NCBI GenBank assembly: GCA_020201275.1
Contig: JAIVHB010000138.1
Coordinates: 1-37,252 of the forward strand
Reading direction: 5' to 3'
Source: Rhodothermaceae bacterium
GTDB taxonomy: Bacteria > Bacteroidota > Rhodothermia > Balneolales > Cyclonatronaceae
Length of the DNA: 37,252 nucleotides
A program made the translations under genes and the position numbers. The notes below the pieces were generated by a model. That model searched no databases. It was not told the origin of the DNA and was given only the letters and a program-made list of their open reading frames with translations. This document shows positions 24,621 through 31,925 of the stretch, piece by piece (within the stretch, counting starts at the first letter, position 1; each line of letters starts with the position of its first letter).

Positions 24621-25637
24621 TCAACGGGTCTCAAGCAGACGGAGCTGCCAGATATCGCGGTCATCAAGTTTGAGCAGCGGTTGCAGTGCCAGTATTCCGG
24701 TTATGCCGATGCTTTTTTCGAGAAAGTTCAGCTCGATAAGCTGGGCCTGAAGTTCGGAGTCAAGTTCAGGCATAATGCCGCACTCCTTCATCATCAGAAT
24801 GCCCTTGGCCTTAAGCGACAATTCGAGGTAAATGCGCAGATAACCCAGCAGATCGGCCATAACGGGCCCCTCAAACATGTTCATAAGTGACTCCAGATAG
24901 TTTCCAAGCCTGCTGTCGGACAGATCGCCGGCCATTATGAGCTGCAGCAACTCCACATCGTGATCGAGACCCTGACCCAGCCATTCCCTGGTGTGTTGTT
25001 CACTGCGTTTAAAGATAAAATAGATGAGCGGCGGGAGTGTGAGCAGTATGAGCAGCATGGCCGTGAGAGGCGGAAGGATGAACTGGTTATACAGTCCGTG
25101 AATCAGAATGGCAGCAAGCAATCCCGGAAGTGCCTTAACCCATGAGGGCCACTCCCGGGTGTCGTGCATATCTTTGGTGATGATGGCGGCAATGGCGGTA
25201 GTACCTCCGTGCATTACTGCTGTGCCCATGCCGCGGATCAGCCAGGTGAGCAGCCCGGGATCCTGCAGTGAGTTCAGGTAGAAAATGTTTTCAACGATTG
25301 CAAAACCGGTCCCGACGGCAAAGCCGAAAATGGCGGCATCCACCATAAAACCGACTTTCCGGGCACGGATCAGATAAAACACGAAGGCGAACTTGATGAT
25401 CTCTTCTGTGACCGGGGCACCAAACCTTGAGAACGTCGACAGGCCCGTGCCGGTATACTTCATCAGCTGACTGTTCACTAAAAGTGCTGCCGCCGTGGAA
25501 AGGCATCCAGCAGCTATGGCGATCACCAGATTTTTAAAATTGACGAGCTTGAAGCTGTCGAGCCAGACCAGGGCAACCAAAAAAATGACGATCGGTACCA
25601 GGGCAAGGCCGGCTTCAGCCAACGGCATCAGGTTCAA
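24621..25637 (-). CDS. prsW: PrsW-type intramembrane metalloprotease with C-terminal cytoplasmic extension
   Basis: 338 residues with about seven or eight hydrophobic helices in the first 210. All PrsW catalytic motifs are present: PVTEEIIKF (Glu78-Glu79), GFAIVEN (Glu116), His143 in AVMHGG, and AILIHGLYN (His180). In Bacillus subtilis PrsW makes the first cut in the anti-sigma factor RsiW, releasing ECF sigma factor SigW. Residues about 211-338 are a soluble helical extension without a recognised domain. The gene shares strand and neighbourhood with an ECF sigma/transmembrane anti-sigma pair about 4 kb upstream, making that anti-sigma factor a candidate substrate; this is inference. Confidence 0.88.
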   Translation of the reverse strand: MNLMPLAEAGLALVPIVIFLVALVWLDSFKLVNFKNLVIAIAAGCLSTAAALLVNSQLMKYTGTGLSTFSRFGAPVTEEIIKFAFVFYLIRARKVGFMVDAAIFGFAVGTGFAIVENIFYLNSLQDPGLLTWLIRGMGTAVMHGGTTAIAAIITKDMHDTREWPSWVKALPGLLAAILIHGLYNQFILPPLTAMLLILLTLPPLIYFIFKRSEQHTREWLGQGLDHDVELLQLIMAGDLSDSRLGNYLESLMNMFEGPVMADLLGYLRIYLELSLKAKGILMMKECGIMPELDSELQAQLIELNFLEKSIGITGILALQPLLKLDDRDIWQLRLLETR

Positions 25638-25777: not shown

Positions 25778-28700
25778 CTATCGGAATATCTTCAAAGAAA
25801 CCATGAACTCATCGCTCGAGAAGCTTTTCACGTCGTAATCCCAGGCCATGGCATAGCCGAATGAAAGGGTGGCATCCATGATGGAAAACAGGGAAATCCG
25901 CATGTCGACCTGGGCTCCGGCATTGTAAAAACGATTCTGCTGCCGTTCTCTAACGTTTTCGGTTCCGCCATCCCCTGTTACGGTGGAATTTATCCACACC
26001 GGCTTGTCGAGATTGGTAATAATGCCTGTTGAAAACAGGCTCAGCTGCATCCAATTCGCGTAAAGGCTGGTTACGCCGGCACGACGGAACCGGACCGGCG
26101 GGGTTACCCATTCAACCAGCAGGCGGGTAAAATTGGTGCCGCCGATCGCGTTGAGATCAACGCCCGGGAAGGTATGATAGCTTCTGTAGCGCCGGTTCGC
26201 GCGGTAATCGATCCAGTTGTTGCCAAAACCCCCGAAATAGAAATTGCCGAGCGGTTCGCGGACGGGGCTGAACGAGTAGCCTGCCGATGATCTCAGCCAG
26301 ACCGACGAATGTTTGATGGGCAGGGCGATGCCGTAGTCCAGGTTTTGGTAAACACGGGGAAAAACGATTCGCTGATCGCCCACATTTTCCGCAATCGTAT
26401 TGGTAAAGGTACCGAGCTGCCATCGGAATCCTTTTTCGTGATCAACGGCCCCAAGTGAATGAAGTGTGCGCTGGTAGCTCAGCATGGTTGAGAGCGAGAA
26501 AAACTGTCCGAAGGATGTGGTGATATTCTGAAATTCCGGCAGTCGCTCCAGCCCACCGTAATAGGAGAGCGACACATCCATATCCATTATTCTGGGAGGG
26601 CTGTAGATCAGGCTTTTTTTGTATCCCATACCCACTGAATAGCCCTTCCTGCTTGTCTTGGTCGGGCCGAACAGATCATAGAAATCGCTGGCATTATAAG
26701 AAGCAAAGAAGCGTGCCGACGACATTTCATACAACCACGACGCATGGAACTGCTCGTCTGTGTCGAGGCCGGGATGAGGCGACCAGCCCGCCGTTATATT
26801 CATTTTCTGCAGCCTGAGCGGATCACTGAAATCGAGCCTCACACCGCCGGCCACATAGTCTTTATAACCGTGCACAATGGGATAGGCCGCTATAAGAGAA
26901 AGCCTTTTACCTGCGTGGTATTCACTTCTCGATATGATGAGTGAGTCGGGGTTCAGTGTACCCGGTGCTGGAGGCCTGAGCATCCATTCGGTAACAACTG
27001 GATGCCGTTCCACAACTTCCTGGCCCAGAAAACGGATGGCACTCACACGTTCAGCGGGTTTGTTTTCAATGCGCACCGGAAAGAACCCGTCACCGGTGTA
27101 TTCAAAGGCCAACAGAGAGTCGGCACTGTAGGGAACCGGCCTGAACAAACCGGTTTCCGCGTTGGTAAGCCATCTCACCTCTTTCTGTTCAATATCATAC
27201 CGAACAATGTTGGATACACCCGTATAGTAGGTTGACCCGAACAGATACCTGCCATCGGGCGAAAAGACAAAGGCTGCTGGTGAACTTACTTCAAAATCAT
27301 AGATCTCTTCATAACTGAATCGCCCGGCCATAAGGGAATCGACGTTCATCATTACCAGTTTCTGGTTTCCGCTCACATCCGCAATGGCGGCACTCAGCTT
27401 TTTGCCATCCGGCGATATATCGATATCGAATATATCTTCACCGTAGGGCATGGAGCGAATCCGGTTCCATTCGGTGTAGGGGTAGGGGATTCTTACCAGG
27501 GAGACAATACCATGGTAATGTCGCACGCCCCAGATAGAGCGGTCGGCCGGATTGAAAACAAGGTCACCTGTTCTCACTTCACGGATGAGCGTGGTGGTTT
27601 TGCCCGTATTCAGGTTATGCGCCATCAGGTGGCGCCAGCTGTTGTTGTTGTCGGTGTAGAAGATGGTTCTGTTTTCAGGATCGAAAGCAAGCGAACTCAC
27701 AAAGTGGAGGGCCGGACTTTCAATATCCACCACCCTGCGCATGGATCCGGTTGCGGGGTTCACTTCGGCTATATGTGCAATTTCGCCGGGTTTGGCCACA
27801 GCGGTATAGATAAGGCCCGTTTGATTGTCGTATACCGGGCGGGATACGCCACCCAGCGGGCGTTTTGCAAGCGGGGTTGTTTCTGTAACCGGATTCCGTC
27901 TGATCCTGGCCAGATTGGCCTCCTGCCACTCCCGCTCAAAATCGATCCATTTCGACCACTCAGTGTGCAGGGATGTTCCAAAAACTTTTTTGAAATCGGC
28001 GGAAAAATAGCGCTTTGAGCCGTTTGATCGGGAAGCCCAGTCAATGATGTGTTGCGGGCTGTACGTGACAGCCAGGTACGACATGAAACGCGTACCATAC
28101 ATGTAGGAGTTGCTGCCCACTTCAAAGTCGGTAGTTGTTCCTTCCGATTCCAACCCTACGGCGTCGTATATCCGTCGGTTATCGCGGACCATCGTGCGGA
28201 AACGCATTTCATCGTAGGGGCCCATTACGCGGCCGATGCCGCCCGACATCCAGGTGGTCATGAATTCGGCTATGCCTTCATGGTACCAGCGTGGGGAAAA
28301 CCGCCGTGGAGTGGTCATATAGGCGTAGAACAGGCTGATCGGATCTTCCTTTTCGGGGTTGACCTTGCCGCTGAACGCTTTTCGGAAAAACCGGTCGGTT
28401 GATGTCGACATATCCAGGGCCACGATATGTACCAGCTCATGGTTCATCAGCACGTTTATCCGTTCATTGGCCGGATTGGTCTCAAAAGCGTAGTGGAAGG
28501 GTGCTATTCCCATCAATATGGCGTTTCCCGGCACGGCAGAAGCCCCGGCATTACCGTAATCACCGAAATCCTGCATGATCAGCGTTACGTGCTCGTCGGT
28601 TATATACCCGAATGTGCGTTTGTGAAAATCGAGGGAATTGGTAAATGAACGGATGGTATGGTTGATCAGATACTCATGCCCAAAATGATAATACAGCAGT

Positions 28701-28819
28701 TCAACATCCCCGGTTTTTACTGATTGGAACTGCGCATTGGCGGGCCGGTGTACCAGTATGATTAACAGCGGCAATAATAACAATGCAGGGAGGATTGACC
28801 ACAGGTCTGTTTTTTTCAT
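25778..28819 (-). CDS. Secreted HExxH peptidase-like / beta-propeller / outer-membrane barrel protein (complete paralogue)
   Basis: 1013 residues from the ATG at 28819. A signal peptide (ends RPANAQ) precedes a peptidase-MA-like domain with NHELVHIVA (His127, Glu128, His131) and WYHEGIAEF (Glu181/Glu185). TolB/PD40 propeller blades follow (VFSPDGRYLFGSTYY, DISPDGKKLSAAI), then a long C-terminal beta-barrel ending DEFMVSLKIFR with a penultimate aromatic, as expected for outer-membrane insertion. The layout parallels the protein at 1280-4153, which has a propeller insert and a shorter end. The frame is open 30 codons upstream, but the signal peptide marks the true start. The leader and first codons closely resemble those of the CotH gene. 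Peptidase activity and substrate are unproven. Confidence 0.82.
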   Translation of the reverse strand: MKKTDLWSILPALLLLPLLIILVHRPANAQFQSVKTGDVELLYYHFGHEYLINHTIRSFTNSLDFHKRTFGYITDEHVTLIMQDFGDYGNAGASAVPGNAILMGIAPFHYAFETNPANERINVLMNHELVHIVALDMSTSTDRFFRKAFSGKVNPEKEDPISLFYAYMTTPRRFSPRWYHEGIAEFMTTWMSGGIGRVMGPYDEMRFRTMVRDNRRIYDAVGLESEGTTTDFEVGSNSYMYGTRFMSYLAVTYSPQHIIDWASRSNGSKRYFSADFKKVFGTSLHTEWSKWIDFEREWQEANLARIRRNPVTETTPLAKRPLGGVSRPVYDNQTGLIYTAVAKPGEIAHIAEVNPATGSMRRVVDIESPALHFVSSLAFDPENRTIFYTDNNNSWRHLMAHNLNTGKTTTLIREVRTGDLVFNPADRSIWGVRHYHGIVSLVRIPYPYTEWNRIRSMPYGEDIFDIDISPDGKKLSAAIADVSGNQKLVMMNVDSLMAGRFSYEEIYDFEVSSPAAFVFSPDGRYLFGSTYYTGVSNIVRYDIEQKEVRWLTNAETGLFRPVPYSADSLLAFEYTGDGFFPVRIENKPAERVSAIRFLGQEVVERHPVVTEWMLRPPAPGTLNPDSLIISRSEYHAGKRLSLIAAYPIVHGYKDYVAGGVRLDFSDPLRLQKMNITAGWSPHPGLDTDEQFHASWLYEMSSARFFASYNASDFYDLFGPTKTSRKGYSVGMGYKKSLIYSPPRIMDMDVSLSYYGGLERLPEFQNITTSFGQFFSLSTMLSYQRTLHSLGAVDHEKGFRWQLGTFTNTIAENVGDQRIVFPRVYQNLDYGIALPIKHSSVWLRSSAGYSFSPVREPLGNFYFGGFGNNWIDYRANRRYRSYHTFPGVDLNAIGGTNFTRLLVEWVTPPVRFRRAGVTSLYANWMQLSLFSTGIITNLDKPVWINSTVTGDGGTENVRERQQNRFYNAGAQVDMRISLFSIMDATLSFGYAMAWDYDVKSFSSDEFMVSLKIFR

Positions 28820-29034: not shown

Positions 29035-30366
29035 TCAGATTCTGCCCCAGCTTGCATTGGACTTCAGCACATCAAACCTGCCTTCGCGCATCAGTACTTC
29101 AAACGTGGAGGAGTTCATCAGTTTTACGAAGTTGGCATTGCGCATCAGGCTTTCGAACGATGGGTTGTTCATTAACTCTAACCTGCTGTTACTGCGGAAA
29201 AGCACTTCAAACCGGTTGTTGCGCATTGCTTCGCGAAAAGTATGGTTGCGCATCACTTCAAAGTAGCGGCTTTCGCGCATCACCTCGAAATAGCGGTTCT
29301 CGCGCATCACCTCAGCGTAGCGGTTCTCGCGCATTACCTCGAAGTAGCGATTCTCGCGCATCACTTCAAAGTAGCGGCTCTCGCGCATCAGCTCTACAAA
29401 GGCCGGGTTATTCATCACTTCCATGAAATCTGCATGGTTGGCAAGCTCGGCAAAGGTACTGTTATTGGCAAGCGCCTCGAAATCCTGGTTGCGAAGCAAC
29501 TCAACATAGCTCTCGTTTTGGGCAAGCTCGGCAAATGCGGCATTGCGGTTCAGCTCAACAAAAGCCGGATTATTCATCAATTCGACGTACGCGCTGTGGT
29601 TGGCAAGTTCCGCAAAAGCCTCGTTGCGGTTCAGCTCTATGAAGCGCATATCCCTGGCCAGTTCCATGAACGCGGCATGGTTGGCAAGTTCAGCTTTTTC
29701 GGCATGGCGATTGAGCTCAAACACCGCCGAATTCATCACTTCGTAATGTTCGCTGCGCATCAATTCGAATACAGCCGGTTCACGCATCACCTCTACAAAA
29801 GCCGGATTGTTGGCCAATTCCTGGAGTTGACCGGTTTCAAGCAGGTTGATGAATTCATCGCTTTGAAGCAGCTCCTGTACCTCGGCATTATCCAGGCTTA
29901 TATCGCCGGGCTGAATCTGTGTCTGCCGGTAACGCTCGGCACGTTCAACCCCGTCTACACCTACTGTTCCTGCTACATCACTGGCAGAAGGCTGAGGGTA
30001 ATCAATGGTAACATATACTATAACGGCAGCTATTATAACCAATCCGGTTATGGATGCTGCTATTTTCATTGTTTGGTTCTTTTTTTCTGACATATAGGAC
30101 TCCGTGTGGTTTATCTTTGTTTTTATGCTATGAATTGAAGCTTTTCCGGACCGGGCTGCAATGGCATCCCGGATACCTTTCTGAAGATCTGCGGGTGGTT
30201 GTTCCTTCTTCAGTGACGGGATAGATTCAGCCAGGGATAGCATATCCTTGTACAGGGCCGATGCTTCGGGGTTTGATCTGAGCTCTTTTTCCAGCTCCCG
30301 ACGCTGATCGGCCGACAGTACTCCGTCGATCGCGCCCTGAATTAGTTCTGTTATTCGCTTATCCAT
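29035..30366 (-). CDS. Transmembrane anti-sigma-like protein with a long nonapeptide-repeat outer domain (novel)
   Basis: 443 residues from the ATG at 30366; GGTGA nine bases upstream supports it over a GTG three codons earlier. Residues 1-96 resemble an anti-sigma cytoplasmic domain (MDKRITELIQGAIDGVLSA, then RRELEKELRSNPEASALYKDM) but lack the zinc-finger HxxxCxxC. One membrane helix lies at about 102-122, then a short linker. Residues about 160-436 are about 31 head-to-tail units of nine (rarely eight) residues. The consensus is N-x-x-F/Y-x-E-L/V-M/A/N-R/N, for example NPAFVELNR, NEAFAELAN, ENRYFEVMR. It lies directly downstream of an ECF sigma gene on the same strand, the normal place for its cognate anti-sigma factor. 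I know no family with this outer domain. Individual units faintly resemble STI1/ubiquilin NPxF...L motifs, possibly by convergence. Confidence 0.75.
   Translation of the reverse strand: MDKRITELIQGAIDGVLSADQRRELEKELRSNPEASALYKDMLSLAESIPSLKKEQPPADLQKGIRDAIAARSGKASIHSIKTKINHTESYMSEKKNQTMKIAASITGLVIIAAVIVYVTIDYPQPSASDVAGTVGVDGVERAERYRQTQIQPGDISLDNAEVQELLQSDEFINLLETGQLQELANNPAFVEVMREPAVFELMRSEHYEVMNSAVFELNRHAEKAELANHAAFMELARDMRFIELNRNEAFAELANHSAYVELMNNPAFVELNRNAAFAELAQNESYVELLRNQDFEALANNSTFAELANHADFMEVMNNPAFVELMRESRYFEVMRENRYFEVMRENRYAEVMRENRYFEVMRESRYFEVMRNHTFREAMRNNRFEVLFRSNSRLELMNNPSFESLMRNANFVKLMNSSTFEVLMREGRFDVLKSNASWGRI
29059..29889 (-). repeat. Nonapeptide-coding repeat array (about 31 x 27 bp, diverged)
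   Basis: This is the DNA encoding the nine-residue repeats of the anti-sigma-like protein. The 27-bp periodicity persists across about 830 bases, with two 24-bp units near the membrane-proximal end (SEHYEVMN, SAVFELNR). Divergence is high at both ends and lowest in the block 29248-29382. Phase is kept throughout. Confidence 0.85.
29248..29382 (-). repeat. Five nearly identical 27-bp tandem units within the nonapeptide array
   Basis: Five consecutive units encode ESRYFEVMR, ENRYFEVMR, ENRYAEVMR, ENRYFEVMR and ESRYFEVMR, differing by only a few bases each. All share the GCGCAT core on the plus strand. The homogeneity suggests recent duplication by slippage or unequal exchange, and a length-variable site. 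Confidence 0.9.
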
Positions 30367-30416: not shown

Positions 30417-30439
30417 AAAAAAGCAGAACGTTTTTCTGC
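30417..30439 (-). terminator. Intrinsic terminator between the sigma and anti-sigma genes
   Basis: On the minus strand, GCAGAA-AAACG-TTCTGC forms a six-pair hairpin immediately followed by six T (30422 down to 30417). It lies about 150 bases after the sigma-factor stop and 50 bases before the anti-sigma start. It could attenuate read-through and so set the sigma to anti-sigma ratio, or simply separate two transcripts. Confidence 0.6.
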
Positions 30440-30585: not shown

Positions 30586-31128
30586 TCAGACTACTCCGCC
30601 CATACGCCGGGTGAGGGCATCCCTGAGTTTGATCCGTGCGGAGTAGAGCCTCGATTTAACCGTTTTTTCATCAATATTGAGTACATCGGCCATTTCTTTG
30701 TAGGAAAGATCTTCGAAATGGCGCATCACAATTACGGCTTTATACTCGGGGGTGAGCCGGTCGATTGCCCTCGAGAGATCCGAGTTCTGCTCCGATACCA
30801 TCAGCTCACTGTCGGCTGGATCTGACTGTTCATTGACCAGTTTCAGTTCGTAGTGTACCCGTCTTGACCGCACCATATTCAGGGCTTCGTTTACCATAAT
30901 TCTGTACAACCAGCTGAAAAAACGGTACTTCGTATCGTAAGTATGCAGATTCTCCCATGCTTTAATGAATGCAGCCTGGGTCACATCCCTGGCGTCGTCT
31001 CCATCGCCTACTATCTGGAAAACCGTATTGTACATAGCAAATTGATGATGGTTAACCAATTCATCAAAAGCGTCGGTTTCCCCATTCAGACACTTGTTTA
31101 CCAGTGCCCGACAATAATGATCATCCAT
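30586..31128 (-). CDS. ECF-type RNA polymerase sigma factor (RpoE/SigW-like)
   Basis: 180 residues with sigma region 2 at about 20-88 (DELVNHHQFAMYNTVFQIVG, DVTQAAFIKAWENL, FFSWLYRIMVNEALN). Sigma region 4 spans about 118-172 (LTPEYKAVIVMRHFEDLSYK, then EMADVLNIDEKTVKSRLYSA). Regions 1 and 3 are absent, as in ECF factors. It directs RNA polymerase to a small envelope or stress regulon. The next gene on the strand, 219 bases on, is the nonapeptide-repeat anti-sigma candidate, with a terminator between them. The 98 bases upstream contain AACTTTTTAAGGGACT followed by CACGAT, which might be an ECF-type self-promoter; this is a weak call. Confidence 0.92.
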   Translation of the reverse strand: MDDHYCRALVNKCLNGETDAFDELVNHHQFAMYNTVFQIVGDGDDARDVTQAAFIKAWENLHTYDTKYRFFSWLYRIMVNEALNMVRSRRVHYELKLVNEQSDPADSELMVSEQNSDLSRAIDRLTPEYKAVIVMRHFEDLSYKEMADVLNIDEKTVKSRLYSARIKLRDALTRRMGGVV

Positions 31129-31226: not shown

Positions 31227-31511
31227 TTATTCGATATTGAATATTTTGTCGAGGGATGTGAACCGGAAAACATCCCGTATATGTTTATTAACATTGGTTA
31301 TACGCATTACTTTCCCTTTATCCTGCAATTGCTTGTGCGTTTTGATGAGAATTCCCAGGCCCATACTGGAGATGTAGGCCAGCTCCTCAAAGTCAAGCGT
31401 GGTATCGTCGCTTACGTTTTCAAGCTCTCTCATAGCCATTTCTGCCTGTGCGGCATCGAAGCGGCCCGACAGGCGGATTATTCCATCCGGTTGGTGATCA
31501 ATAGTCAACAT
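31227..31511 (-). CDS. STAS-domain anti-sigma-factor antagonist (RsbV/SpoIIAA-like)
   Basis: 94 residues forming one STAS domain: IIRLSGRFDAAQAE, TTLDFEELAYISSMGLGILI and RITNVNKHIRDVFRFTSLDK. Such proteins bind their partner kinase when unphosphorylated and are switched off by serine phosphorylation. Candidate acceptors are Ser48/Ser49 in ISSMGLG. The residue just before the Gly, where SpoIIAA carries its acceptor serine, is Met50 here, so the exact site is uncertain. The start lies three bases after the stop of the RsbW-like gene (31515), so the two are translationally linked. Confidence 0.88.
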   Translation of the reverse strand: MLTIDHQPDGIIRLSGRFDAAQAEMAMRELENVSDDTTLDFEELAYISSMGLGILIKTHKQLQDKGKVMRITNVNKHIRDVFRFTSLDKIFNIE

Positions 31512-31514
31512 AGT

Positions 31515-31925
31515 TCAACTGCTTAATTTCCTGATTAGGGTAACTGTGGTGATGTTACCGTTTACTTCGTGTTTTACTTCATCCATAAACTGGTGAACCA
31601 GGTGTATGCCCAGCCCCCCGATTCGGCCCTCTTTGTGATAGGCATCCAGATCTACCGGCTTCACAGCGCTCACGTCGAATGGTTTTTGCTGTTGGTCAAG
31701 AAGGCGAACAAATAGTGACCCGTCATCATATTCCACTTCAATAGCTATATCGCCGGAGGCATCGGCATTGTATTTCACCATATTGGTAAATACTTCTTCA
31801 ACCGACAAATCAATACTGAACCGGTGCTCATCACCAATACCATATTCATTGAAGACGGTCCCTATAAACCCGAAAATATTTTCAAGCTCACCAAAATCCC
31901 GCCTGAATGAATGCATTCGCTTCAT
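31515..31925 (-). CDS. RsbW/SpoIIAB-like anti-sigma serine kinase (GHKL ATPase)
   Basis: 136 residues with a HATPase_c_2 fold. The N box is SVEEVFTNMVKYN (Glu44, Asn48), the G1-type motif LLDQQQKPFD (Asp77) and the G2 box RIGGLGIHLVHQF. RsbW-type kinases phosphorylate their STAS partner and sequester a sigma factor or another effector in a partner switch. The STAS gene follows almost without a gap, so the pair is a cognate module. No RsbU-type PP2C phosphatase or sigma-B type factor is visible in the window. The target may be encoded elsewhere, or may be linked to the adjacent ECF system. Confidence 0.88.
   Translation of the reverse strand: MKRMHSFRRDFGELENIFGFIGTVFNEYGIGDEHRFSIDLSVEEVFTNMVKYNADASGDIAIEVEYDDGSLFVRLLDQQQKPFDVSAVKPVDLDAYHKEGRIGGLGIHLVHQFMDEVKHEVNGNITTVTLIRKLSS

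Follow-up and report, generated by a model that had tools for sequence, protein, structure and literature searches.

Two described systems stand close to the locus reported here. In Bacillus subtilis, the Sigma-W/RsiW/PrsW system combines an ECF sigma factor, a single-pass anti-sigma factor (RsiW, which is not known to carry a long repeat domain) and a PrsW-type protease; in the Tol-Pal system, TolA is an inner-membrane-anchored protein with a long helical domain. PrsW is the site-1 protease for RsiW (PMC10202637, PMC3482391). The window, i.e., the whole stretch of 37,252 nucleotides analyzed in this work, likewise encodes an ECF sigma factor, a single-pass anti-sigma factor and a PrsW-type protease, and the modelled anti-sigma domain (ASD) of the window protein is RsiW-like.

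Gene layout and the anti-sigma domain

The original prediction described an ECF anti-sigma factor with a long array of nonapeptide repeats; its coordinates for the open reading frame were correct, whereas the location of the gene on the minus strand had been overlooked. The anti-sigma region and the one hydrophobic helix (residues ~100-121) were confirmed in the 443-aa frame, and the ECF sigma gene was found upstream on the same strand. Because a lysine lies on the N side of the membrane helix, the orientation of the protein is probably N-in/C-out. The features of the locus are collected in Table 1, in which MAprot is a name coined in this analysis for the 1043-aa product of the adjacent gene.

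Table 1. Coordinates of the fused gene, its domains and the neighboring genes in the window
Feature	Position	Strand	Basis
PrsW-type intramembrane protease	24621..25637	(-)	PF13367 E=4.8e-22, 78.9 bits vs cut-off 23.5; synteny
MAprot, exported, ~1000 aa: HExxH and WYHEG, putative TolB-like propeller, putative Omp85-like C-terminal barrel	25778..28819	(-)	Motifs, three-phyla alignment, weak matches, synteny
Fused anti-sigma/repeat protein, 443 aa	29038-30366, stop 29035-29037, ATG 30366	(-)	
Nine-residue repeat domain (residues 160-443, ~31 units), predicted seven-residue helix each	29038..29889	(-)	
Conserved juxtamembrane segment (residues 122-159), GTVG...VERAERYRQTQ...DISL	29890..30003	(-)	Three-phyla alignment, partner profile
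Single membrane helix (residues ~100-121)	30004..30069	(-)	Read from sequence; helix 99-120 in model
Anti-sigma domain (residues 1-75), cytoplasmic, without zinc motif, Asp14-Gly15 invariant	30142..30366	(-)	Profile, alignment, Foldseek
ECF sigma factor (180 aa)	30586..31128	(-)	Sigma70_r2 7.8e-16, Sigma70_r4_2 7.2e-17
STAS anti-anti-sigma protein (94 aa)	31227..31511	(-)	STAS 1.8e-14; TIGR00377 above cut-off
RsbW-like kinase/anti-sigma (136 aa)	31515..31925	(-)	HATPase_c_2 2.4e-17; synteny

Pfam and NCBIfam returned sub-threshold matches only for the anti-sigma region, among them NF052375 (E=3.9e-6, below cut-off). The zinc motif HxxxCxxC is absent, there being no cysteine at all in residues 1-100, and zf-HC2 stayed below cut-off as well (E=0.099). 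However, ASDs without zinc exist, and in RseA, residue D11 is a key helix-1 contact with sigma (PMC7406223); the absence of the zinc motif, therefore, does not bar membership in the class I ECF anti-sigma factors. A profile of separate anti-sigma factors, built without Balneolales, matched residues 1-152 of the window protein with E=4e-22 at Z=4000. A Foldseek search with the modelled N-terminus retrieved RsiW (5wuq, probability 0.98) and RslA (3hug, ~0.9), the probabilities ranging from 0.85 to 0.98 with E>2, and RsiW was also the top anti-sigma match when the A3 profile was compared with the PDB (E=0.052). Residues I9, D14 and G15 are invariant, Asp14 of the IDG triplet being present in all nine sequences aligned; by eye, it would correspond to RseA D11. 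Overall, residues 1-75 form an ECF anti-sigma domain, for which sigma binding and inhibition are predicted, and the profile match, the RsiW/RslA-like model and the invariant Asp14 together bear out the early assignment of an anti-sigma-type protein beside its own ECF sigma factor.

The intergenic region between the sigma and anti-sigma genes contains a terminator-like hairpin on the minus strand (30423-30439; GCAGAA-AAACG-TTCTGC, then six T), and the corresponding gap in Balneolales spans ~100-440 nt, which is unusual for a sigma/anti-sigma pair. A conserved attenuator at this place was considered and rejected, since the window hairpin is absent from a sister genome (L065).

Fusion of two proteins in a conserved operon

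A whole-protein search over 60 relatives yielded close homologues with 27-48 units in other Balneolales genomes, and a profile limited to residues 1-196 retrieved ~28 strong members in 129 genomes of the order. The named records of the family come from Balneolales MAGs, whose isolate names point mostly to sediments and mats of soda lakes. Within the order, a repeat-only profile found the unit confined to the fused anti-sigma family, plus one fragment (in G103), probably of the same gene, divided between contigs. Beyond the order, the profile matched three genomes (G152, G247, G282), in which the repeats belong to a single-pass protein of its own that shares the juxtamembrane motif; at two loci (L098, L100), this protein comes after an unfused anti-sigma factor with a different domain at its end. 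A profile of the separate partners, built from non-Balneolales sequences only, matched residues 104-178 of the window protein (E=6.7e-23 at Z=4000), which comprise the anchor and motif of such a partner. Since two profiles of non-Balneolales origin match different halves of the protein, the window gene unites an anti-sigma factor with a membrane-anchored repeat partner, the two being separate elsewhere. A fused form was also found at L102, from another family of the phylum. That the gene joins two widespread proteins, within an operon shared across phyla, had been missed in the original prediction and emerged from the profiles and synteny. A natural fusion of this kind shows which proteins work together, and as it is located in a conserved operon, the adjacent MAprot is the probable partner of the repeat.

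The gene order is RsbW-STAS-ECF sigma-anti-sigma/partner-MAprot-PrsW, and an ECF sigma homologue lies just upstream of the anti-sigma gene in those family members with enough contig. The MAprot homologues in the sampled lineages are 43-64% identical to the window MAprot, and the HExxH motif was found in 12 of the 12 inspected, with a downstream EG in the alignment and no Pfam peptidase match; MAprot is a candidate gluzincin-type metallopeptidase. One homologue matched Omp85_2 below cut-off (E=0.002), and the similarity to TolB propellers is weak; from the weak Omp85-like match, we infer that MAprot may be placed at the outer membrane. In 41 main-branch loci, from Bacteroidota, Gammaproteobacteria and Krumholzibacteriota, the gene directly upstream of MAprot encodes an anchor-bearing partner, and the ECF sigma, STAS, RsbW and PrsW-type genes are found at most of these MAprot loci. 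The anchor model (A7), built from 16 partner sequences, also recovered partners in new loci (L123, L127-L134, L136-L138). Two gammaproteobacterial loci of genome G561 (L125 4541-4852, L126 4319-4645) encode, instead of the anchor-bearing partner, a short lipoprotein of ~100 aa without repeats but with an AGTIMAAKRA-like motif, and no sigma/anti-sigma pair was detected at L126. Among main-branch loci with enough upstream DNA, none lacked both the anchor-bearing partner and the motif lipoprotein.

Among the genomes searched, MAprot was present in 21 of 80 from Krumholzibacteriota and in 4 of 185 from Gammaproteobacteria. In the class tally, 24 genomes had both repeat and MAprot, 2 the repeat only, 9 MAprot only and ~205 neither (Fisher p=1.8e-23, which is not a formal probability, as the genomes are related by descent and no correction was made for kinship); for one of the repeat-only genomes (G054), MAprot is present in the corresponding record (L056). 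In a genome that is 99% complete (G044; locus L048), the sigma gene is intact, the anti-sigma gene is reduced to a 92-aa open frame with no repeats, and no MAprot match was obtained. Plasmid mobility of the module was rejected, as MAprot had no match in plasmids.

Comparison of the partners revealed a conserved anchor motif, whereas 12-mers or irregular sequence can take the place of the nine-residue repeats. Nine-residue repeats occur in the partners of L067, L098, L099, L100, L101, L123 and L138, and 12-residue repeats in those of most Krumholzibacteriota and L106; the partners of L103-L105, L107, L118 and L119 are irregular and helical-looking. This swap of 9-mers and 12-mers under a fixed anchor offers a clean test of length and stiffness versus sequence as the signal that crosses the envelope. 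The syntenic partner of L117 (3090-3710) consists, in its C-terminal half, of REVGKEVG tetrapeptide repeats (REVG-type 4-mer). At L099 (G282), the partner and MAprot are present with no adjacent ECF sigma gene, followed by a 255-aa PrsW-like frame, recognized by eye and below the BLAST cut-off.

In a divergent branch of MAprot (L110, L111, L113-L115, L120), the partner is a secreted protein of near-perfect 15/16-residue repeats (RSGSQLDELGSKYGWV; L110 5220-10017), which retains, as read by eye, a VExAxRYRVxQ-like motif. No ECF sigma, anti-sigma or PrsW gene was detected in these neighborhoods; a Ser/Thr-kinase-like protein is encoded upstream in L109, L110, L113, L114 and L120, then, in most, a sigma54-activator-like protein. 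A secreted partner with no sigma/anti-sigma gene, together with the HExxH conserved in all MAprots inspected, is what would be expected if the repeat protein were a cargo or substrate of MAprot that is exported, cut or displayed in the form of repeat pieces, the fusion allowing the cell to gauge export or processing. We consider this quite improbable, however, since the main-branch partner keeps its membrane anchor and is thus not freely exported, and the Balneolales partner is fused to a cytoplasmic domain.

The nine-residue repeat

The repeats extend from residue 160 to the C-terminus, over 284 residues or ~31.5 units of 9. Residue identity at lag 9 was 0.40 versus 0.084 in shuffled sequences (z = 18.4), and lags 18 and 27 gave z = 16-17; the 9-residue period is thus far beyond chance, and the array of 31 nonapeptides beyond the membrane proved to be real, the consensus unit being better given as x-[N/S]-P-x-F-x-x-L-x. 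Tandem Repeats Finder detected only ~5 recent copies at the DNA level (5.4, at 29248-29394), and when two units share a residue, they also share its codon in just 36-52% of cases in most members. It follows that the bulk of the array is of old date at the DNA level and that selection, and not fresh slippage, maintains the period. The phase of 9 is strict across up to 41 units, and regular members differ in length by multiples of 9. Moreover, dN/dS was 0.04-0.25 on the repeats and 0.04 on MAprot, and the repeats are under purifying selection. Chance or slippage as the origin of the repeats was ruled out by these phase, codon and dN/dS data.

Structure prediction of the repeat run returned separate seven-residue helices, one per unit and divided by two-residue breaks, in two AlphaFold2 models, namely of the window protein (mean pLDDT 62) and of a regular relative, L060 (pLDDT 78.6, pTM 0.66, with a confidence of 70-90 over most of the repeat); the models are based on 15 and 9 sequences, and modelled repeats can look orderly by habit. 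In 442 units, position 2 is S, T, N or D in 84%, and proline occupies position 3 in 44% and any other position in no more than 3%, the frequencies of F5 and L8 in the same set being partly fixed by the criteria of unit selection. Independently of the models, the position-2 and proline pattern is a helix N-cap signature, and pattern and models together indicate that each unit would be one seven-residue helix. The continuous helix with faces alternating at each unit, as contemplated in the original prediction, is therefore not upheld, since it would be broken in every unit by an N-cap residue, often followed by proline, and both models give separate helices. No match was found among the PDB and viral structures searched with the modelled repeat, the best probability being 0.06-0.07. 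For comparison, the alpha-solenoid families covered in one review have roughly 30-42 residues per unit, versus 9 here (PMC11514114).

Known repeat families were then compared. The RTX consensus GGxGxDxUx is not satisfied, glycine amounting to no more than 3% at any unit position and Pfam giving no match; TPR has a 34-residue unit as opposed to the period of 9, and only NF047558 was hit, below cut-off in the window protein and with no single significant stretch. The early statement that the repeat is neither RTX nor TPR therefore stands. Pfam matches of repeat regions to Plasmodium_HRP, VipE, Med31 and Ribos_L4_asso_C look like low-complexity artefacts. The commonest Pfam match was STI1-HOP_DP (PF17830), obtained with 13 of 15 members, with a top score of 58 bits (L060; cut-off 29.1). 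When the possible alignment to this described family was checked, the cut-off was passed in some relatives only and through fragments of 20-24 of the 55 positions, summed over repeats, with no single significant stretch in the high scorers, and the window protein remained below cut-off; STI1-HOP_DP was consequently rejected, as a full-length single-stretch match above the gathering score was not reached. The likeness lies in an NPxFxxLM-like motif that the window repeat has in common with the DP domain. These matches and this motif raise the prospect of a chain of client-binding helices, with a groove lined by the F and L of each unit that would take up hydrophobic segments of outer-membrane proteins in the unfolded state; this binding would in turn expose the site-1 cut, following the logic of RseB/DegS. 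Such a role is unlikely in our judgment: apart from the fragmentary nature of the matches, sister lineages put quite different 12-mers at that place, and the F and L may be spent on packing between units.

A further parallel is the MgtE N domain (PF03448), which is cytoplasmic. The syntenic 12-mer partner of a Krumholzibacteriota locus, L069 (6790-8100), matched MgtE_N above cut-off (1.9e-15, 57.7 bits), and short one-helix units therefore have a precedent; however, the units of L069 have 12 residues and those of the window protein 9, and the latter has no MgtE_N match. Existing MgtE_N annotations may conceal members of this partner family.

The ease with which lineages swap both period and sequence (9, 12, 4, irregular), and a match of the A3 profile to the B domain of coagulation factor V, at its nonapeptide repeats (E=0.019), would also suit a low-complexity spacer or protease-sensitive tether of no fixed fold, for which length and anchor motif alone would matter. 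The low dN/dS of the repeats, their strict phase and steps of 9, the helix-capping signature and the confidence of the L060 model all argue against it, and we regard it as a rather poor candidate. All in all, the early portrayal of the outer domain as extended, located beyond the membrane and undescribed in any family library held up, while the role of sensor then given to it is kept here as a conditional reading.

Proposed mechanism and comparison with known systems

In the reading that we prefer, for which the chances appear evenly balanced, a periplasmic helical ladder would tie the anti-sigma factor to MAprot at the outer membrane, and cleavage by PrsW would free the sigma factor when the tie changes. 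The units, as short N-capped helices, would be stacked into a periplasmic rod that reaches MAprot, the peptidase/propeller part of which would hold, read or trim it. The trigger would be a changed link, whether through damage to the outer membrane, a shift in spacing or a cut in the ladder itself; PrsW would then cut the anti-sigma factor near the GT(I/V)G...RYR segment, on the model of PrsW/RsiW, and degradation of the remnant would release sigma, with RsbW/STAS as an added cytoplasmic branch. An envelope-spanning rod is not universal, in view of the lipoprotein without repeats at two gammaproteobacterial loci and the secreted 15/16-mer branch, and a separately encoded partner need not be a PrsW substrate. 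The wider proposition, offered tentatively and as somewhat doubtful, is a trans-envelope module in which a freely evolving rod of one-helix units on a fixed anchor would be read by an HExxH/propeller/barrel protein dedicated to it at the outer membrane and would control an ECF sigma factor through PrsW. If true, such a rod would convey the spacing of the envelope or the attachment of the outer membrane, and not a chemical ligand.

No description of the module, which extends over three or more bacterial phyla, was found in the open-access literature searched. Compared with the Sigma-W/RsiW/PrsW system, the window module has PrsW encoded in the operon, whereas RsiW carries zinc in its ASD and has no MAprot partner. 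Tol-Pal offers an analogy, as TolA, with its inner-membrane anchor, lies opposite a TolB-like propeller on the outer-membrane side; the partner showed no homology to TolA in sequence, however, and MAprot differs in its HExxH and barrel regions and its link to a sigma factor, the similarity to TolB being weak. The components of the regulatory core are of known kinds, and the pairing of a repeat partner with MAprot appears to be undescribed in the literature searched. The regulation of ECF sigma factors would gain an apparently undescribed type of sensor or tether, as well as a very short one-helix repeat of 9 residues.
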